DNA from: Polyangiaceae bacterium | Lineage (GTDB): Bacteria > Myxococcota_A > Polyangia > Polyangiales > Polyangiaceae | Direction of reading: 5' to 3' | Assembly: GCA_009780955.1 (NCBI GenBank) | Contig: WQZB01000003.1 | Location: 1 to 64,000 of the forward strand | Length of the DNA stretch: 64,000 nt | Translations under genes and position numbers: made by a program | The notes under the pieces: model-generated | Seen by the model: only the letters and a program-made list of their open reading frames with translations | Told to the model about the DNA's origin: nothing | The model's database searches: none | In this document: positions 26,662-36,658 of the stretch, piece by piece | How the letters are laid out: each line of letters opens with the position of its first letter | How positions within the stretch are numbered: position 1 is the stretch's first letter

Positions 26662-28317
26662 GTGAGCGACGAGATCGACCCAACGCCGCCCCCCGTCGGA
26701 TCGACGCCGAACCATCGCCTCGATCGAGGCCAGCGCATCGCAATCGGAATCATGGGTGGCCTGGTCGCGCTCGGCGGGCTCGCCGTCATTCTTTCTCCAC
26801 GTCATCCAAGCCCTCCAACCACCGACCGAGCTGCTACTGCAACGAACGTGGTGTTGACTGCATCATCCGCCACGCCGGAGCCGAAAGAGGCGGAAAGTGC
26901 CGTTCTGCCCACTGTCGTCATTCCCGTTGCTCCCGCTCCTCCCGACGGCGCCGCTGCTCCTGTCACCGCTGCCACCGCAACCGCTACCGAAAGCGCGGAA
27001 CCGCGCTTGCCCAAAGCCTGGCGCGTCGCAAGCATGAAGGGCGAAGCTGGCATTGATATCATCGAGGGCACATTAGGCAACCGCACATTGTCGGCAGCCC
27101 TCACGCAAGTAGGGATCTCAAAGGCGGAAATCAAACGAATTTTGCACGCATTCAAAGGGGTTCACCGCATCGAGCGCATCGAACACGTCGAGCACACCAA
27201 GCGCCCTAAGCGAGATGCATCGCCAAAACCAATCGCTCCGCCGAAGCAAGATCACGCACCGAAAGAATCCTTCGCTCTTGCACGCGACAGGTCAAATGGC
27301 ACCGTCGTTGCGTTCGAGTTCATCGCCTCGCCCACCGACATTTGGCAGGCGAAAGCCCCAGAGACTGCCAAAACGGGCAAGTACCTTGTCGCAAGCAAGC
27401 TCGATTTGCATGTCGAGCACCGAAAAATCAGTTCGGTGCTAACCCTCAGCGCCGATCTTGGCAAGGCCGTTACTGCAGCGGGCTTGCACCAAGGGTCCAT
27501 CGAGGCCATCGACGATGCACTGGAAGGCTTCGTCGATCCAACCGCGCTCAAGCCGGGCGTCCGCATTCGCGTGGCCGGCGCGGAAGATTGGGTCGATGGC
27601 ACATTTGCGCGCTACCGCGTTGACGCGCTCGAGTTTGTGCCAAGGTCGGGCACACCGCTTCGCATTTACGGCTACGAGAATGAGCGAAGCCAATCCCATC
27701 GTTCTCACTTAGCCTTCTACGATGCCAGAGGCCACGAGCCTTACCGCGGCACGTTCCGCTCCCCGCTTCCCTTTACCCGCATCACTTCGCGCTACAACCC
27801 AAAGCGCATGCATCCTGTTTTGCACACGATTTTGCCGCACAACGGCGTCGACTTTCGCGCGCCAACGGGCACCCCCGTGTACGCGGCCGGCGCCGGTACC
27901 GTGGCAAGCGTGGGCGACGGCGGTCGATGTGGAAACATGATTCAAATCGATCACGCAAATGGCATGACAACCGGCTACTGCCACTTGTCACGCTTCGCAG
28001 CCGGCCTTCGTGCCGGCCAGCACGTCGAGTCGCGACAGCTCATTGGTTACGTCGGTAAAACGGGCAGTGCAACAGGCCCGCACCTTCATTTTTCGGTAAA
28101 GCGAGGCGGCGTGTTCATCGATCCTCTTGCGCTCAAAATGGACGGCGTGCGCGTGCTGCCACCGCGTGATCGCGACGCGTTTGCCATCGCGCGCGCCGAT
28201 CTCGACAAAGCCCTCGACGCCATCGCATTACCCAACGCTGCGCCCGACCTACCGGATGACGACCATGATGATCACGACGACCATGATGATCACGACGAGC
28301 TCGCCGGCGAAGAGTAG
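26662..28317 (+). CDS. M23-family metallopeptidase, membrane anchored
   Basis: Probable peptidoglycan endopeptidase. A single membrane helix (IAIGIMGGLVALGGLAVIL, about 27-45) anchors it, followed by a Pro/Ala/Thr-rich linker. Residues about 125-290 hold LysM/OapA-like modules as in MepM proteins. The M23 domain has HNGVDFRAPTGTPVYAAG with the first His and Asp zinc ligands and GPHLHFSVKRGG with the HxH motif. The C-terminus is an acidic/histidine run (DDDHDDHDDHDDHDE) that could bind metal. Translation begins with GTG. If one base were missing near 28310, the frame would continue into a Lys-rich tail of about 38 residues. Confidence 0.85.
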   Translation: MSDEIDPTPPPVGSTPNHRLDRGQRIAIGIMGGLVALGGLAVILSPRHPSPPTTDRAATATNVVLTASSATPEPKEAESAVLPTVVIPVAPAPPDGAAAPVTAATATATESAEPRLPKAWRVASMKGEAGIDIIEGTLGNRTLSAALTQVGISKAEIKRILHAFKGVHRIERIEHVEHTKRPKRDASPKPIAPPKQDHAPKESFALARDRSNGTVVAFEFIASPTDIWQAKAPETAKTGKYLVASKLDLHVEHRKISSVLTLSADLGKAVTAAGLHQGSIEAIDDALEGFVDPTALKPGVRIRVAGAEDWVDGTFARYRVDALEFVPRSGTPLRIYGYENERSQSHRSHLAFYDARGHEPYRGTFRSPLPFTRITSRYNPKRMHPVLHTILPHNGVDFRAPTGTPVYAAGAGTVASVGDGGRCGNMIQIDHANGMTTGYCHLSRFAAGLRAGQHVESRQLIGYVGKTGSATGPHLHFSVKRGGVFIDPLALKMDGVRVLPPRDRDAFAIARADLDKALDAIALPNAAPDLPDDDHDDHDDHDDHDELAGEE

Positions 28318-30844: not shown

Positions 30845-31750
30845 TTAACCCCGTGGAGGCTCCTTGTCATTGCGCGCCGCCATCAACGTGGCGAGGCCTA
30901 ACCCCTCTGGCGGAAGAAGCGTGACTTCCGCCGGCGACTGCAGAAGCTGCTGCGTTTCGAGCACGTCGAACGTGGCGTTCGCAACGCGTGGGTTCGAGAG
31001 CATTTCGCGAAGCGTGGCTCCGAGAAGTTGAGGCCGCAGCGTGGCGGCTTTGGCAAACTCGACGGCGGCCTCGCGTTCCGCGGCTCCGCGAATCAGGCTC
31101 ACTTGATTGATGCCGTCTTGCCGAATCGCACTGGTGACTTGGCGAAGGCGATTCGTAACCTTTTCCTCGATTTGGGCAACCATCTGCGCGTCACGGAAAT
31201 GCACTTTGCGAATGTAAACGCTTCCGAGTTTGTATCCCCATTCGTGGGCTTTTTGGGATACTTCGTTGCGTACGAGCAGGCTCATGGTATGGCGTGTTTC
31301 GAGCATGTCCTCGAGGCGCATGTTCGACAGCGCCCGCACCGTGGTCGAGCCCACGTTGGCGCGCAGCGATCCGCGTGGATCCGTGTTTCGGAAAAGATAC
31401 GCGGCGGGATCGCTAATGAACATTTCGTACCAAATTCCAATTCCCATGGGCGCGCCTTCCTCCGAATTCACGGGTTGGCTGCGCAAGTATTCCTGATCGA
31501 CACGCATATCGAGCACGTATCGCTTTCCAAAAAAGCGCACGAGCATGGCGCGAGGCCCCAATTCACCAAGAATGAAATGAAGTCCCGGCTCCGTGATGAC
31601 ACCCAACACTTGCCCAAAAAGAACATAAACATGGCATGTTCGTTCACGAATGACATCGTAAACACCGAACGCCCGGAGAATGGCAAAGAAGAGCGGCACA
31701 CCGAAAACCAACGCGACGAATGTGACCGCAGCAACACTCAGCAAGATCAT
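30845..31750 (-). CDS. SPFH/Band 7 protein (HflC/stomatin-like)
   Basis: A 301-residue membrane-anchored protein. The first helix is LLSVAAVTFVALVFGVPLFFAIL. The SPFH domain (about 45-220) includes ERTCHVYVLFGQVLGV, the DMRVDQEYLRSQPVNSEEG segment and RNTDPRGSLRANVGSTTVRALSNM. A Glu/Ala-rich helix (EEKVTNRLRQVTSAIRQ...EREAAVEFAKA) would form the coiled coil that assembles such proteins into ring-like microdomains. Its ATG overlaps the stop of the companion SPFH gene by four bases. Together they may act like HflK/HflC or a slipin pair, organising membrane proteases or lipids. Confidence 0.8.
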   Translation of the reverse strand: MILLSVAAVTFVALVFGVPLFFAILRAFGVYDVIRERTCHVYVLFGQVLGVITEPGLHFILGELGPRAMLVRFFGKRYVLDMRVDQEYLRSQPVNSEEGAPMGIGIWYEMFISDPAAYLFRNTDPRGSLRANVGSTTVRALSNMRLEDMLETRHTMSLLVRNEVSQKAHEWGYKLGSVYIRKVHFRDAQMVAQIEEKVTNRLRQVTSAIRQDGINQVSLIRGAAEREAAVEFAKAATLRPQLLGATLREMLSNPRVANATFDVLETQQLLQSPAEVTLLPPEGLGLATLMAARNDKEPPRG

Positions 31751-32976
31751 CGGACTCCTCCTGCCGGTCCTCGGCCGGTCGGTGACAATGGTGGCGGACC
31801 CCCAGGCTCCAACACGGGGGCTCGCGTCACGGCACTTGCTGCACCTGCTGACTGTAACCCAATCGAAGGCGGAAGGAACACGCGCTTGGCACGACCAAAA
31901 AGCCCGAGGCGAAGATTTCGCACATACGAATCGAGCGCCCCCGGGCCTGTGTCGAGCGTTGCGAGCTCACGCGAGAGCGCTCGCAATGGCTCGGTTTCCG
32001 CCTGCACGCGGAGGGTTTCGATTTCGACCGCACGACGAGACTGCACGATGCGCTGATCGGCGGCCGCTTGCGCGAGGCTGATTTCGGAAGAAACATGGTT
32101 GTAAGCCGTATTGATCGCCGCCAAGGCCGACTCCACTTCGTCGGGCGGATCGATTTCCGTAATGAGACACGCCTCGAGCGTAATGCCATAACGCGACGCA
32201 CTCGATAGGCAATCAGCCTCCATGTGATCATTCAAATCGCGAAGGTTCTTGCGAAGATCGTTGATGGACACGCCCCGTTGCGCCGCAAGGCCATCGCCCG
32301 CTGCTGTGCCGGACACGCCGGCAGCAGGCGCAGCAAGCGCATTCGGAGCTTGCCCCGTGCCCGCGACGAGCGCGAGATGATCTTGCTTGCCGCGCGGCGC
32401 TTCGAAACTCGCAATCCGCTGACGAAGCACGGACACGAAATAGCCAAGCACGTGTGCGATTGGATTTTTTATGGCGAAAAGCACGGCATAAAGATTCTGC
32501 TCCGAAACACGAAAACGAATTTGCCCGCTGATTTTCGTGTTGAGATGATCTTTGGTGACCGCCTCGAGACGACGCCCCCCTTCGTTTGCCTCGGGCGACA
32601 CGGGATCGTAGGCAAGGTTTGTTGTGACCGTTGCGATGTTGATCTTGTGAATCTCTTCCCACGGCCACTTGAAGTACGGCCCACCGGGTGGAATCACGAC
32701 CACTTGCGGATACGCGTAGCGTTCGCGCTCGTCGGGACGAAGCGTTTGCGCAATGGGCAACGCAAGCGTGGTTTCACCCGAGCGCATGCGCTCGGCACGA
32801 CCAAAGATCGTTTTTACAGCACGCTCGTTTGGCCCAACGGTGAAGACGCCACGCACAACGACGCGCATCACCATGTACGCAAGAACGCCAAGAACGAATC
32901 CAACAAAAGCCTCTGCGTACGTTGCCGTGCCAATGGACGAAACCACGTCGACCGGAGAGGGATCCTGCCATCGCAT
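31747..32976 (-). CDS. SPFH/Band 7 protein (HflK-like partner)
   Basis: A protein of about 409 residues and the upstream member of a coupled pair. An N-terminal membrane helix (AEAFVGFVLGVLAYMVMRVVV) precedes RGVFTVGPNERAVKTIFG, a typical HflK/SPFH opening. The region PPGGPYFKWPWEEIHKI and ISGQIRFRVSEQNLYAVLF is the SPFH core. A Gly/Ala-rich insertion (about residues 210-240) separates it from the coiled-coil segment (DPPDEVESALAAINTAYN...QSRRAVEIETLRVQ). The C-terminus is Pro/Gly-rich. The start could be GTG 32994; ATG 32976 is given. Both lack a clear ribosome site. Confidence 0.8.
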   Translation of the reverse strand: MRWQDPSPVDVVSSIGTATYAEAFVGFVLGVLAYMVMRVVVRGVFTVGPNERAVKTIFGRAERMRSGETTLALPIAQTLRPDERERYAYPQVVVIPPGGPYFKWPWEEIHKINIATVTTNLAYDPVSPEANEGGRRLEAVTKDHLNTKISGQIRFRVSEQNLYAVLFAIKNPIAHVLGYFVSVLRQRIASFEAPRGKQDHLALVAGTGQAPNALAAPAAGVSGTAAGDGLAAQRGVSINDLRKNLRDLNDHMEADCLSSASRYGITLEACLITEIDPPDEVESALAAINTAYNHVSSEISLAQAAADQRIVQSRRAVEIETLRVQAETEPLRALSRELATLDTGPGALDSYVRNLRLGLFGRAKRVFLPPSIGLQSAGAASAVTRAPVLEPGGPPPLSPTGRGPAGGVR

Positions 32977-33039
32977 AACGTCAAATTTTATCACACCGCA
33001 GCATGCCTGCTATCACCAGAGCTGCCGATCTTGCTGATC

Positions 33040-33630: not shown

Positions 33631-33996
33631 ATGTCGCGTGTCGACAATCTAAACCGTATCCTGCGCCGCCTTCTTACAGGCTCGCCAGACGTCGAAGCAA
33701 GTGCGCTCATCTCCGAAGACGGCTTGATGATTGCCAGCGCACTGCCTGCCCAGGTTGACGATGCGCGCGTTGCAGGCATCACCGCAACGCTCGCAAGCCT
33801 TGGCATGCGCGCGACGAGCGAGCTCGAACGCGGCACCATGGGAGAATTGCTCGTTGGCGGAGATCGCGGCTACGCCGTGATGCTCGCTACGGGTTCGGGC
33901 ACGCTGCTGCTTGCACTCACGAGCAAGCAAGCCAAGCTGGGCCTCCTGTTTCTCGACATGCGCCGCGCGGCCGACGAAATCAGGAAGGTGCTCTGA
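33631..33996 (+). CDS. Roadblock/LC7-domain protein
   Basis: A 121-residue protein consisting of one Roadblock/LC7 domain: NLNRILRRLLTGSPDVEASALISEDGLMIASALP opens the fold, MGELLVGGDRGYAVMLATGSGTLLLALTS forms the central sheet, and LGLLFLDMRRAADEIRKVL is the last helix. Homologues such as MglB act as GTPase-activating or scaffolding partners of small Ras-like GTPases. The start at 33631 is preferred over 33460, whose extra residues are not family-like. Its TGA shares a base with the ATG of the protoglobin gene. It opens a five-gene operon. No GTPase gene is in the window. Confidence 0.88.
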   Translation: MSRVDNLNRILRRLLTGSPDVEASALISEDGLMIASALPAQVDDARVAGITATLASLGMRATSELERGTMGELLVGGDRGYAVMLATGSGTLLLALTSKQAKLGLLFLDMRRAADEIRKVL

Positions 33997-34541
33997 TGGA
34001 TCCGGCAACTGTCGCGATTTTTGAGCGGCTCAAGGTCTTTCTCGAATTTTCGCAAGCTGATGCCGACCGGCTCGTCGCGTTGCAGCCAGCCATGGCCAAG
34101 CATGGGCCAAGCATCACCACCGAATTTTACAAACGGCTCGGCGAGGTTCCGGAAACCGCAAAATTCATCAAAGGTCGTGTCGAGGAGTTGCGCGTCACGC
34201 ACCTTGCATGGCTCCGTTCTCTGGTTGGCGGTGTGTACGACGAAAGCTACCTCGCCTCACGCTGGAAGATTGGCCTCACCCACGTGCGCATTGGGCTCGA
34301 TCCATATTGGGTTGAAGCCGTCATGAGCTTCATCCGCACAGCAGGCGTTGAGGCCATCATCGCCGAGCTACGCGACAGCGCGACCGCCGGACGCCACGCC
34401 TCGAGCTTCCTCAAAGTGTGCGATCTCGATATGCTAATCATCAACCTTTCCTACGCGGAAGACCGGCTCGATCGCCTCGCTTCGTTCACTGGAATAAAAC
34501 GCAGTCTCTTCGAGACCATCATCCGAATCCCGAAGAAGTAG
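33996..34541 (+). CDS. Protoglobin / globin-coupled-sensor domain protein
   Basis: A 181-residue heme-binding sensor domain. The key segment RWKIGLTHVRIGLDPYW places the proximal heme histidine at residue 96, in the IGxxHxxIGLxPxW context of globin-coupled sensors and protoglobins. KFIKGRVEELRVTHLAWLRSL gives the preceding helices. Length is typical of a stand-alone domain, without a fused cyclase, kinase or methyl-acceptor output. Such proteins bind O2, CO or NO. GGAAGG precedes the ATG, and it overlaps the Roadblock gene by one base. Output is therefore expected through protein contacts within this operon. Confidence 0.88.
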   Translation: MDPATVAIFERLKVFLEFSQADADRLVALQPAMAKHGPSITTEFYKRLGEVPETAKFIKGRVEELRVTHLAWLRSLVGGVYDESYLASRWKIGLTHVRIGLDPYWVEAVMSFIRTAGVEAIIAELRDSATAGRHASSFLKVCDLDMLIINLSYAEDRLDRLASFTGIKRSLFETIIRIPKK

Positions 34542-34548
34542 TACAAAG

Positions 34549-35385
34549 ATGAATCGCCCTATCGTACCTGACGAGACCCTATCGGCCAAAAGTGACGAAG
34601 AAACTGCGTCGCCTTTCGCAGTGGCCGACTACGTGCAGCTTGCAGGCATGTCGGGGCGCTCGATCGTTCTTGAAATTCGCGGGCTGGTGGCCGGGCGGGG
34701 GACGATCGTCATTCGCTCTGGAATGCTTTGGTCCGCGCGCGACGAGCGAGGCACGGGGTTTGACGCGTTTCGGCGCCTCACCTTCTTGAGTGACGCCGCC
34801 GTACACTGCAGCACACTCGATGAGGGCTACGTTGCCGAGCCATGCATGTTCAACGTGTCATGCGAAAAGGCGCTGCTCGACGCTGCACGCATCAACGACG
34901 AAATGCGGGAGGGACTCCGAACGGCTTCGTCCGACATCGACGGCGCATGGGACCACCTTGGCACGGTTCGGGCGCCAACCGAGTCCGCGGTGAAAGCAAA
35001 ACTGTCGGCAGTGCCACCTCCGGCCGAATCGTCCGCAGGGCCCTTGTCGTCCTCGCCGTCGGCGTCGAGACGTGGCATGCCGCGCGAGACGCAAAAGCCG
35101 CAAGGCTTAATTCGCGAGACTCGCGAAACTCGCGAAACTCCACTGCCAAAAACATTCGAAGAGATCTACGACGAGGGCACACCACCCTCGACCGCATTCG
35201 ACGATGCCGACACACCGCGCGTAAAAACGTTCGACGAGCTGTACGACGAAGGCGTCGAGGCGCTCTTGCACAAGCGTTTTGATGACGCCTACAAAGCATT
35301 CAGCGCGGCCAATCTCGTTCAGCCTGGCGATTCGCGTGTGCGCACGAATCTCGAGCGGCTGGCGCAAATGGGATACGCGTCGTGA
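34549..35385 (+). CDS. DUF4388-like protein with C-terminal TPR
   Basis: A 278-residue cytoplasmic protein. Residues 25-125 (YVQLAGMSGRSIVLEIRGLVAGRGTIVIRSG) match the DUF4388/PATAN pattern found in myxobacterial and cyanobacterial signalling proteins. A Ser/Pro/Glu/Thr-rich linker follows (about 130-205), including repeated RETRET. The C-terminus repeats KTFEEIYDEG / KTFDELYDEG, then a TPR-like unit (ALLHKRFDDAYKAFSAANLVQPGD). It starts seven bases after the protoglobin stop, and its TGA overlaps the GTG of the OmpA-like gene. Probable adaptor linking the sensor to the envelope proteins; inferred from context. Confidence 0.75.
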   Translation: MNRPIVPDETLSAKSDEETASPFAVADYVQLAGMSGRSIVLEIRGLVAGRGTIVIRSGMLWSARDERGTGFDAFRRLTFLSDAAVHCSTLDEGYVAEPCMFNVSCEKALLDAARINDEMREGLRTASSDIDGAWDHLGTVRAPTESAVKAKLSAVPPPAESSAGPLSSSPSASRRGMPRETQKPQGLIRETRETRETPLPKTFEEIYDEGTPPSTAFDDADTPRVKTFDELYDEGVEALLHKRFDDAYKAFSAANLVQPGDSRVRTNLERLAQMGYAS

Positions 35386-35996
35386 ACCTTGCTGGTCCCT
35401 CACTTGGAATCGCAGGACTCACTGCTGCGGCCGCATCGGTAATGTTCGCGCTGGACACGTTCAACCCCCAAGTTTTGCAGCTTCCCGTCCACGAGGAGCC
35501 CGCCATCGCCGAGCCCAAGGCAAGTGCTCCTGCACGACCAGACGCAGCCGACAAGAGCGAACCTGTTGAACCGGCCCCAAATACTGAACCGGCTACTGAA
35601 CCGACCCTGCCGGCTAATTTTTCGTGCCCACCTGTCGAAGTCGTCTTCGGGCCATCTTCCACAGGCCTCGGCAACGCCGCTCAAGTCACGTTAGAACCCC
35701 TCGCACGTTGGATAGCAGCCCATGCAAGCGCCGAGGTCGTTGTTGAAGGGCATGCGGATCGTCGCGGCCCCGAAGACGCAAATCTTTGGGTGAGCCACGA
35801 GCGCGCACGCATTGTCGCCATGACACTTACAAAATACGGCGTCGCCGAAGAGCGCTTGGTGCACCGAGGCGTTGGCGCCAAGCCAACCGACGGCTCAGAA
35901 AGTAGCGATGCTCGACGGCGGCGAGTCGTCATTTCTGTAAAAGACTCCTCGGGCGAATGTCCCCCACTCGTGGTGGCTGCGGGAGGCACGCTTTGA
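35382..35996 (+). CDS. OmpA-family peptidoglycan-binding protein
   Basis: A 204-residue protein starting at GTG. A weakly hydrophobic N-terminus (GIAGLTAAAASVMFAL) is followed by a Pro/Ala/Glu linker. The OmpA-like domain is evident: VEVVFGPSSTGL, LEPLARWIAAHASAEVVVEGHADRRG with the Asp that contacts diaminopimelate, and LWVSHERARIVAMTLTKYGV with the conserved Arg. It ends in a Cys-containing tail. In the operon it would supply a link to the cell wall. Overlap with the upstream stop indicates coupling. Confidence 0.85.
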   Translation: MNLAGPSLGIAGLTAAAASVMFALDTFNPQVLQLPVHEEPAIAEPKASAPARPDAADKSEPVEPAPNTEPATEPTLPANFSCPPVEVVFGPSSTGLGNAAQVTLEPLARWIAAHASAEVVVEGHADRRGPEDANLWVSHERARIVAMTLTKYGVAEERLVHRGVGAKPTDGSESSDARRRRVVISVKDSSGECPPLVVAAGGTL

Positions 35997-36658
35997 TCGC
36001 CACAACCATTGTTTTCGCTGTTATGGCAGCCGTGCTGCTTTTCCTGTCGGGATGGGTCATCGCGTCGAGCAAAGCCCAAAGTGCACGCCTGGCACTTGAA
36101 GCGCAAACCTCTCAAGCCGCGCTGCGCACGAACGCGCCGGAAGCCGAGCTCGAAAGCAGCAAGCAATTGCACACCATGCTTGCGCCAGTGGTCGAGCGCG
36201 AGAAGCTCACGCTCAATCTGCTCAATCTTGCGGATGATCCCACCCATCGCGACTTGCCCCAGCTTCTCGATGCCATTGCCGAAGCAGGTCACTTCTCAAC
36301 GGTCATGCTGAGCGACGACGCTGGCTTGCCCGTTGCCACCAGTACCAACATCGCTGCATCGCCCGACAGCATCGAGCGTCTCGTTGCAGCTACATCGCTC
36401 ATGCTCATCGTCGCCGACCGTGCCGACACGAACGGCGAGCCTCGTCCCTTGGGCTTCGTGGTGCACGACGAAAGCAACCGCATGGCGTGCTACCGCATCT
36501 TCGAAGTCGACGGCGCCCGTTTCATTCTCACGGTGACCGCGCGCGCTCGCCAGCTAGTTCCGAGCTCGCTCGATCCCATTGTCGGCCAGCTCGAGGCAAC
36601 CCTTGCCCGTCCTATGGAAGATCGAGTTTCGTCCTTGCCGCCTGCCAAAAAGGAATGA
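35993..36658 (+). CDS. Membrane-anchored Roadblock-like protein
   Basis: A 221-residue protein. An N-terminal membrane helix (IATTIVFAVMAAVLLFLSGWVI) leads to a helical, Ala/Glu-rich segment (about 25-75), then a Roadblock/LC7-like domain: LLDAIAEAGHFSTVMLSDDAGLPVATS, LMLIVADRAD and ARFILTVTARAR correspond to its strands. I chose TTG 35993 because GGGAGG lies six to seven bases upstream; ATG 35957 has no such site. The TTG overlaps the OmpA stop (TTGA). It ends the five-gene operon and stops three bases before the convergent RND stop. It may recruit a small GTPase to the membrane. Confidence 0.7.
   Translation: MIATTIVFAVMAAVLLFLSGWVIASSKAQSARLALEAQTSQAALRTNAPEAELESSKQLHTMLAPVVEREKLTLNLLNLADDPTHRDLPQLLDAIAEAGHFSTVMLSDDAGLPVATSTNIAASPDSIERLVAATSLMLIVADRADTNGEPRPLGFVVHDESNRMACYRIFEVDGARFILTVTARARQLVPSSLDPIVGQLEATLARPMEDRVSSLPPAKKE

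Follow-up and report, generated by a model that had tools for sequence, protein, structure and literature searches.

What does a stand-alone protoglobin do when its gene is packed into an operon together with those of two Roadblock proteins? The question is raised by a five-gene operon at positions 33631–36658 of a 64,000-nucleotide stretch of DNA from Polyangiaceae bacterium (GCA_009780955.1, contig WQZB01000003.1, positions 1–64,000), the whole of which is referred to here as the window. The operon encodes, in order, a small Roadblock protein (RoadA), the protoglobin (PGb), a PATAN-TPR protein, an OmpA-like protein and a second Roadblock protein (RoadM). The conserved gene cluster to which it belongs looks like an undescribed oxygen-signalling module and, on balance, the operon is probably a reduced form of a myxobacterial module of this kind that is spread across the phylum and is built on a dedicated Roadblock protein, namely, RoadA.

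The evidence comes from the neighbourhoods of RoadA. At an E-value of 1e-20 or better, a RoadA profile finds the protein in 48 of the 379 Myxococcota genomes sampled; 40 neighbourhoods were retrieved, with genes assigned by profiles, and 46 RoadA loci were evaluated. Either PGb or the di-iron protein ODP is encoded within 4.5 kb and on the same strand at 41 of the 46 (26 with ODP, 12 with PGb and three with both); RoadA is consistently encoded with a protein predicted to be of an oxygen-binding type. The ODP neighbour belongs to PF19583 (E = 7.6e-68), and its metal-site motifs, SHQDPD and PQHG, are present in 31/31 copies. In its fuller form, the cluster runs from a PAS histidine kinase through RoadA, ODP and/or PGb, and a receiver-PATAN-TPR protein to the OmpA and RoadM proteins, with kinase and receiver-PATAN in the same gene run at about 20 loci. 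PGb occupies the ODP slot in the window and at loci L031, L032 and L084, and both sensors are found at L033, L048 and L086. Since one slot accepts two unrelated oxygen-binding folds, the input would be oxygen or a related gas; the gas sensing proposed in the first-pass annotation of this DNA is thereby supported, ODP replacing or joining the protoglobin at the same place in most relatives. The window locus is a reduced form, without the kinase, the receiver domain and ODP.

The pairing extends to the distribution of the proteins. The PGb subfamily occurs in 14 genomes from eight families, and RoadA in 14/14 of them (Fisher p = 4e-14, kinship ignored), whereas no association is seen for the remaining protoglobins, most of which lie in long frames resembling those of globin-coupled sensors (RoadA in 2/16; p = 1). 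Of the 31 genomes with close ODP relatives, 27 have RoadA (p = 4e-24, kinship again ignored). PGb members that were not used to build our profile (in G345, a second copy in G255, and two in G217) likewise lie in genomes with RoadA. The presence of PGb requires eight changes on the RoadA tree, at least five of them forced by well-supported branches. PGb and RoadA distances are correlated (r = 0.70; 0/10,000 permutations), and both trees split a main from a deep group; this split is not simply that of the species tree, because family f16 has members of both. Two of the loci that have neither ODP nor PGb are occupied differently: a V4R protein (E = 6e-12) adjoins RoadA at L115:7320-7796, one of five such loci, and a protein distantly like it does so at L116:6305-6772. 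These V4R-type proteins may represent a third sensor type in this slot.

Within the operon, the features are as follows:

33631–33996, + strand: RoadA, a 121-residue Roadblock/LC7 protein (Robl_LC7, E = 4e-13; 7f8m, 5e-34)
33996–34541, + strand: PGb, a 181-residue single-domain protoglobin (Protoglobin, 5e-28; 2w31, 4e-19; AfGcHK, 1e-18)
34128–34130, + strand: codon for Tyr45 of PGb, which aligns with the distal Tyr45 of AfGcHK
34281–34283, + strand: codon for His96 of PGb, which aligns with the proximal His99 of AfGcHK
34549–35385, + strand: PATAN (DUF4388)-TPR protein (DUF4388, 0.0012, and a structure model)
35382–35996, + strand: OmpA-like protein (OmpA, 9e-13, and an alignment)
35993–36658, + strand: RoadM (an alignment, and a model with a mean pLDDT, or predicted local distance difference test, of 86; best match MglB, 6hjm, 5e-6)

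All five frames are intact, and the order of overlapping or nearly touching genes is as the first-pass annotation described it: three junctions overlap by 1–4 bp, and the fourth, between PGb and the PATAN gene, is a 7 bp gap. The stop of RoadA and the start of PGb lie within a common TGATG (33994–33998), and the overlaps of the PATAN with the OmpA gene and of the OmpA gene with RoadM are GTGA and TTGA, respectively.

The same annotation had called the third protein a DUF4388-TPR adaptor. The Pfam scores for DUF4388 are weak, 0.0012 for the window and 4e-5 for its L033 ortholog, both just under the 25-bit cut-off; the assignment is backed by the latter and by the structure model, which has a confident N-terminal domain and one C-terminal hairpin. 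The probable PATAN domain covers residues about 22–130, and 22 relatives align with invariant positions. The TPR-like hairpin (residues 228–273) matches TPR motifs at about 1 Å over 47 residues, although these matches are short, with E above 0.01. The receiver domain missing from this protein in the window is present at L033 and at other loci. The OmpA-like protein comprises a hydrophobic N-terminal segment, presumably an inner-membrane anchor, and a C-terminal peptidoglycan-binding domain, which should be periplasmic; it resembles Pal/YiaD and falls below all NCBIfam cut-offs. For RoadM, a Pfam scan found no Roadblock match at the sequence level, but its AlphaFold model (16 relatives) bears out the suggestion of a second, membrane-anchored Roadblock protein: a long N-terminal helix leads via a coiled coil into a Roadblock-type fold, for which the best PDB matches with Foldseek are to Myxococcus xanthus MglB (template modelling score about 0.7 by target length). 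Because the residues after its helix are positively charged in relatives, the Roadblock domain is expected to lie on the cytoplasmic side. The most likely start of RoadM is TTG 35993, since the homologous MI.. residues are where its three orthologs begin; the start listed for the frame, ATG 35957, would add 12 residues. The anchors of the OmpA-like protein and RoadM in membrane and wall fit the proposed link to the cell envelope.

The resemblance of RoadM to MglB raises the possibility that RoadA and RoadM are regulators, of the GTPase-activating or nucleotide-exchange kind, of an MglA-type GTPase, and that oxygen on PGb or ODP shifts the GTPase cycle and hence polarity or pilus activity. Indeed, an MglA-family GTPase (9e-53 to MglA structures) is encoded between RoadA and PGb at L110:7052-7663, and others are found in the neighbourhoods L109, L111 and L112, all of the deep clade; the window's genome retains one MglA, and MglB homologs near PATAN proteins have been noted earlier (PMC4316618). 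However, there is no GTPase in the window operon or at the main-clade RoadA loci, and RoadA is only distantly similar to MglB: its nearest solved relative is 7f8m (5e-34), followed by CvnB5 (1e-11), with MglB structures at 0.002, such that similarity rules it out as an MglB ortholog. Moreover, the genome's sole MglA, on contig C54, already has a likely partner about 340 bp away, namely, the only Pfam Roadblock protein of this genome other than RoadA. The operon, with no mglA and a RoadA not closest to MglB, is also rejected as an MglA/MglB module. The small-GTPase coupling of the first-pass annotation, therefore, stands in part: it finds no support in the operon itself and survives as a hypothesis because an MglA-family GTPase adjoins RoadA and PGb in the deeper clade. 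We consider control of such a GTPase unlikely; two-component signalling, by the PAS kinase and the receiver-PATAN protein, is the commoner linked partner. The deep-clade loci also carry PATAN-only proteins, another Roadblock-like protein, and helix-hairpin-helix and HU-like genes. In the main clade, a ParA/MinD-type ATPase and another soluble Roadblock protein are frequent additions to the locus; the ATPase lies downstream of receiver-PATAN at L097:9460-10437, L095, L096, L048, L049, L106 and L107, usually with the second soluble Roadblock, and suggests positioning within the cell.

PGb itself is much as first described, a stand-alone protoglobin with its proximal histidine and without an output domain. 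The Protoglobin domain (PF11563, 5.4e-28) spans residues 9–156 of 181, and His96 and Tyr45 are invariant in an alignment of 16 relatives. Beyond the domain, only a short extension remains before the stop at 34541, conserved as INLxYxExRxxRxxxFTGMxRxLIE; with no C-terminal output domain on the chain, PGb is rejected as a globin-coupled sensor. From these features, PGb would bind heme and oxygen, possibly nitric oxide (NO) or carbon monoxide. The subfamily is sharply set off from other protoglobins (E of 1e-70 or better, with the next at 6e-35). One Myxococcota group that matches residues 12–178 (L034-L040) adjoins kinase, anti-sigma-type and STAS-like genes and was set aside, since by eye it is like the stressosome globin-STAS proteins; most of the remaining protoglobin matches in the phylum sit in long frames, as in globin-coupled sensors.

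Both candidate sensors have enzymatic kin, and ODP is related to flavodiiron enzymes. PGb might, therefore, be an enzyme or scavenger, acting in oxygen, NO or peroxynitrite chemistry to shield the complex, in line with a proposal made for archaeal protoglobins, with ODP as its di-iron counterpart with reductase activity. Gas chemistry is known in both folds, and protoglobin activities have been reported (PMC4020757). Nevertheless, PGb and ODP are tightly linked to Roadblock, PAS kinase and receiver-PATAN genes, no reductase gene recurs as a partner among the neighbours of RoadA loci, and the conserved C-terminal extension is specific to the RoadA-linked subfamily, all of which make protective chemistry an improbable role.

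Conservation within the genus bears on whether the reduced operon is still a working system. Among the 12 genomes compared, the same four, the window's and those of three congeners, contain PGb and RoadA orthologs, and all five genes are in order in each; conservation of the order in the Myxococcota, which the first-pass annotation had made one test of its proposal, is, with the recognisable arrangement across the phylum, well beyond chance, and the proposal is not refuted on this count. RoadA is the most conserved protein of the operon (75–83% identity to congener orthologs), followed by PGb (59–76%), the PATAN protein (53–59%), RoadM (43–61%) and the OmpA-like protein (35–41%). In G011 (locus L033), the PAS-HisKA-HATPase kinase lies upstream, an ODP-type protein is encoded after PGb as an extra gene before the PATAN gene, and a receiver precedes the PATAN domain. 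The ODP frame at L033:10649-11400 is broken in this draft genome; since relatives have intact copies, the break could reflect either an error in sequencing or a genuine loss. That the operon is a decaying remnant, left behind when a shrinking genome (4.2 Mb versus 6.6–12 Mb in most congeners) lost the kinase, receiver and ODP of its signalling core, is very improbable, as the five intact frames keep their tight overlaps, RoadA its high identity, and PGb its heme residues and extension, and both G010, the closest relative, and G003, with a genome of 11.9 Mb, have this reduced form intact.

We assign neither set of flanking genes to the operon. Upstream and divergent from it, on the − strand at 30845–32994 of the window, are genes for two adjacent Band 7/SPFH proteins (301 and 415 residues), which have no counterpart at the three congener loci; the downstream RND-type transporter genes are convergent and in the same place only in G010. 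A promoter scan found no sigma-70-type site, a negative that weighs little in this phylum. Elsewhere in the window's genome, neither a dedicated partner kinase (the best kinase matches are about 1e-27) nor a stand-alone ODP was found. Its single ODP-like stretch (E = 2.5e-18) is the C-terminal domain of a 695-residue protein with an N-terminal Ser/Thr kinase (L121:394-2481; contig C7 around 27518-28141). The same fusion is present in G010 (L122), and an oxygen-regulated Hanks-type kinase is a possible reading of it. In family f27, Ser/Thr kinase genes directly adjoin RoadA-ODP pairs (L101:4465-6090 and, in a reversed locus, L103:4769-6850), again uniting ODP with Hanks-type kinases.

How, then, might an oxygen signal be relayed by a module built on RoadA? 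Ligand binding by PGb would be passed to RoadA and/or the PATAN protein, probably via the conserved C-terminal extension. In most relatives, the signal would modulate the kinase/receiver pair. The window's lineage has no phosphotransfer parts at the locus, so that the likely route there is direct contact between proteins, in which the globin would capture or release the PATAN-TPR adaptor. RoadM, with its predicted cytoplasmic Roadblock domain and membrane helix, and the periplasmic, wall-bound OmpA protein would fix the complex at a site on the inner membrane. The output is the least certain step: by analogy with PATAN precedents, it would be a surface or polarity machine (the MglA pathway, or type IV pili), and probably not transcription, because the core module has no DNA-binding domain. 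In the window's genome, a PilB model gives a split match that is below its cut-off. More broadly, and more tentatively, we suggest that structurally unrelated gas sensors (di-iron ODP, heme protoglobin and perhaps V4R) may be exchanged for one another on a dedicated Roadblock protein that serves as their docking hub. From this hub, oxygen status would pass to a PATAN-TPR adaptor and to a membrane Roadblock anchored in the wall; phosphotransfer or an MglA-type GTPase might or might not take part, and the whole would represent a previously undescribed class of signalling module.

Several points weigh against an oxygen-signalling module. Heme binding, the ligand and every protein contact are what we infer from sequence and models. 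The p-values for association carry no correction for kinship, and the proteins used to make the PGb profile were themselves linked to RoadA. The OmpA and RoadM genes are not beside RoadA at several ODP or PGb loci (L088, L090-L092 and L094-L097), so the envelope part would be optional. Finally, in the window's lineage, there is neither a linked kinase nor a linked GTPase, and the output path is not visible.

Known systems offer partial parallels. Conservons (CvnA-D with accessory CvnF), which are actinobacterial G-protein systems, are likewise operons that combine a histidine kinase with a Roadblock protein, and some of them include an accessory sensor as a separate protein acting on that kinase; the sensor CvnF8, for example, stimulates its partner kinase (PMC13343842). 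However, RoadA loci mostly have receiver-PATAN proteins and no GTPase, their sensors are ODP or protoglobin, and the OmpA and membrane Roadblock proteins have no conservon counterpart. Of the conservon set of kinase, Roadblock, DUF742 and GTPase, only the Roadblock is present in the window, with a kinase added in relatives, and no DUF742-like neighbour recurs at the RoadA loci mapped; the window is not a conservon. With the MglA/MglB/RomR polarity module of Myxococcus, the cluster shares Roadblock and receiver proteins around a small GTPase, the MglB-like fold of RoadM and the deep-clade MglA neighbour, whereas that system has no oxygen sensor, and in the window's genome mglA is paired with another Roadblock gene, apart from the operon. 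In Synechocystis, the PATAN protein PixE acts on PilB1 and is bound by PixD, a stand-alone sensor without an output domain (PMC7690835), but PixD is a blue-light BLUF sensor, PixE keeps its receiver domain and no Roadblock is involved. ODP, of the same family as the neighbour gene in relatives, is an oxygen sensor in the chemotaxis of Treponema denticola, stand-alone on a signalling complex but acting on a chemoreceptor and CheA (PMC7666581), and its recruitment into a variety of signalling operons has been pointed out (PMC7319448); the window operon is without it. The globin-coupled sensors AfGcHK and NmpU, the latter a myxobacterial protoglobin kinase that senses oxygen (PMC11841059), share with PGb the protoglobin sensor domain and the aligned Tyr45/His99 pair, but PGb has no fused output and forms a discrete subfamily tied to RoadA. 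At Group 1 Rup GTPase loci, a membrane protein with a C-terminal OmpA domain also lies beside signalling genes (PMC4316618), although no Rup GTPase was found at the window locus, and its OmpA protein lacks a large cytoplasmic domain. A literature search, with most subscription journals outside its coverage, found no paper joining protoglobin and Roadblock, and nothing relevant on Roadblock and PATAN receivers with oxygen, or on Roadblock and metallo-beta-lactamase in myxobacteria. Overall, we conclude that the cluster is a variant of the Roadblock-containing signalling operons, and is not a conservon, an MglA/MglB module or a globin-coupled sensor.

Stand-alone protoglobins have long been without a clear job, and one subfamily now has, in RoadA, a genetic partner of its own and a role that can be tested. 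The RoadA loci present a natural exchange of two unrelated oxygen-binding folds in one signalling slot, and would tie oxygen sensing to the Roadblock family, whose best-known role is in regulating small GTPases and motors. Should the output prove to be polarity or pili, myxobacteria of soil and gut would have a link between oxygen and movement over surfaces.

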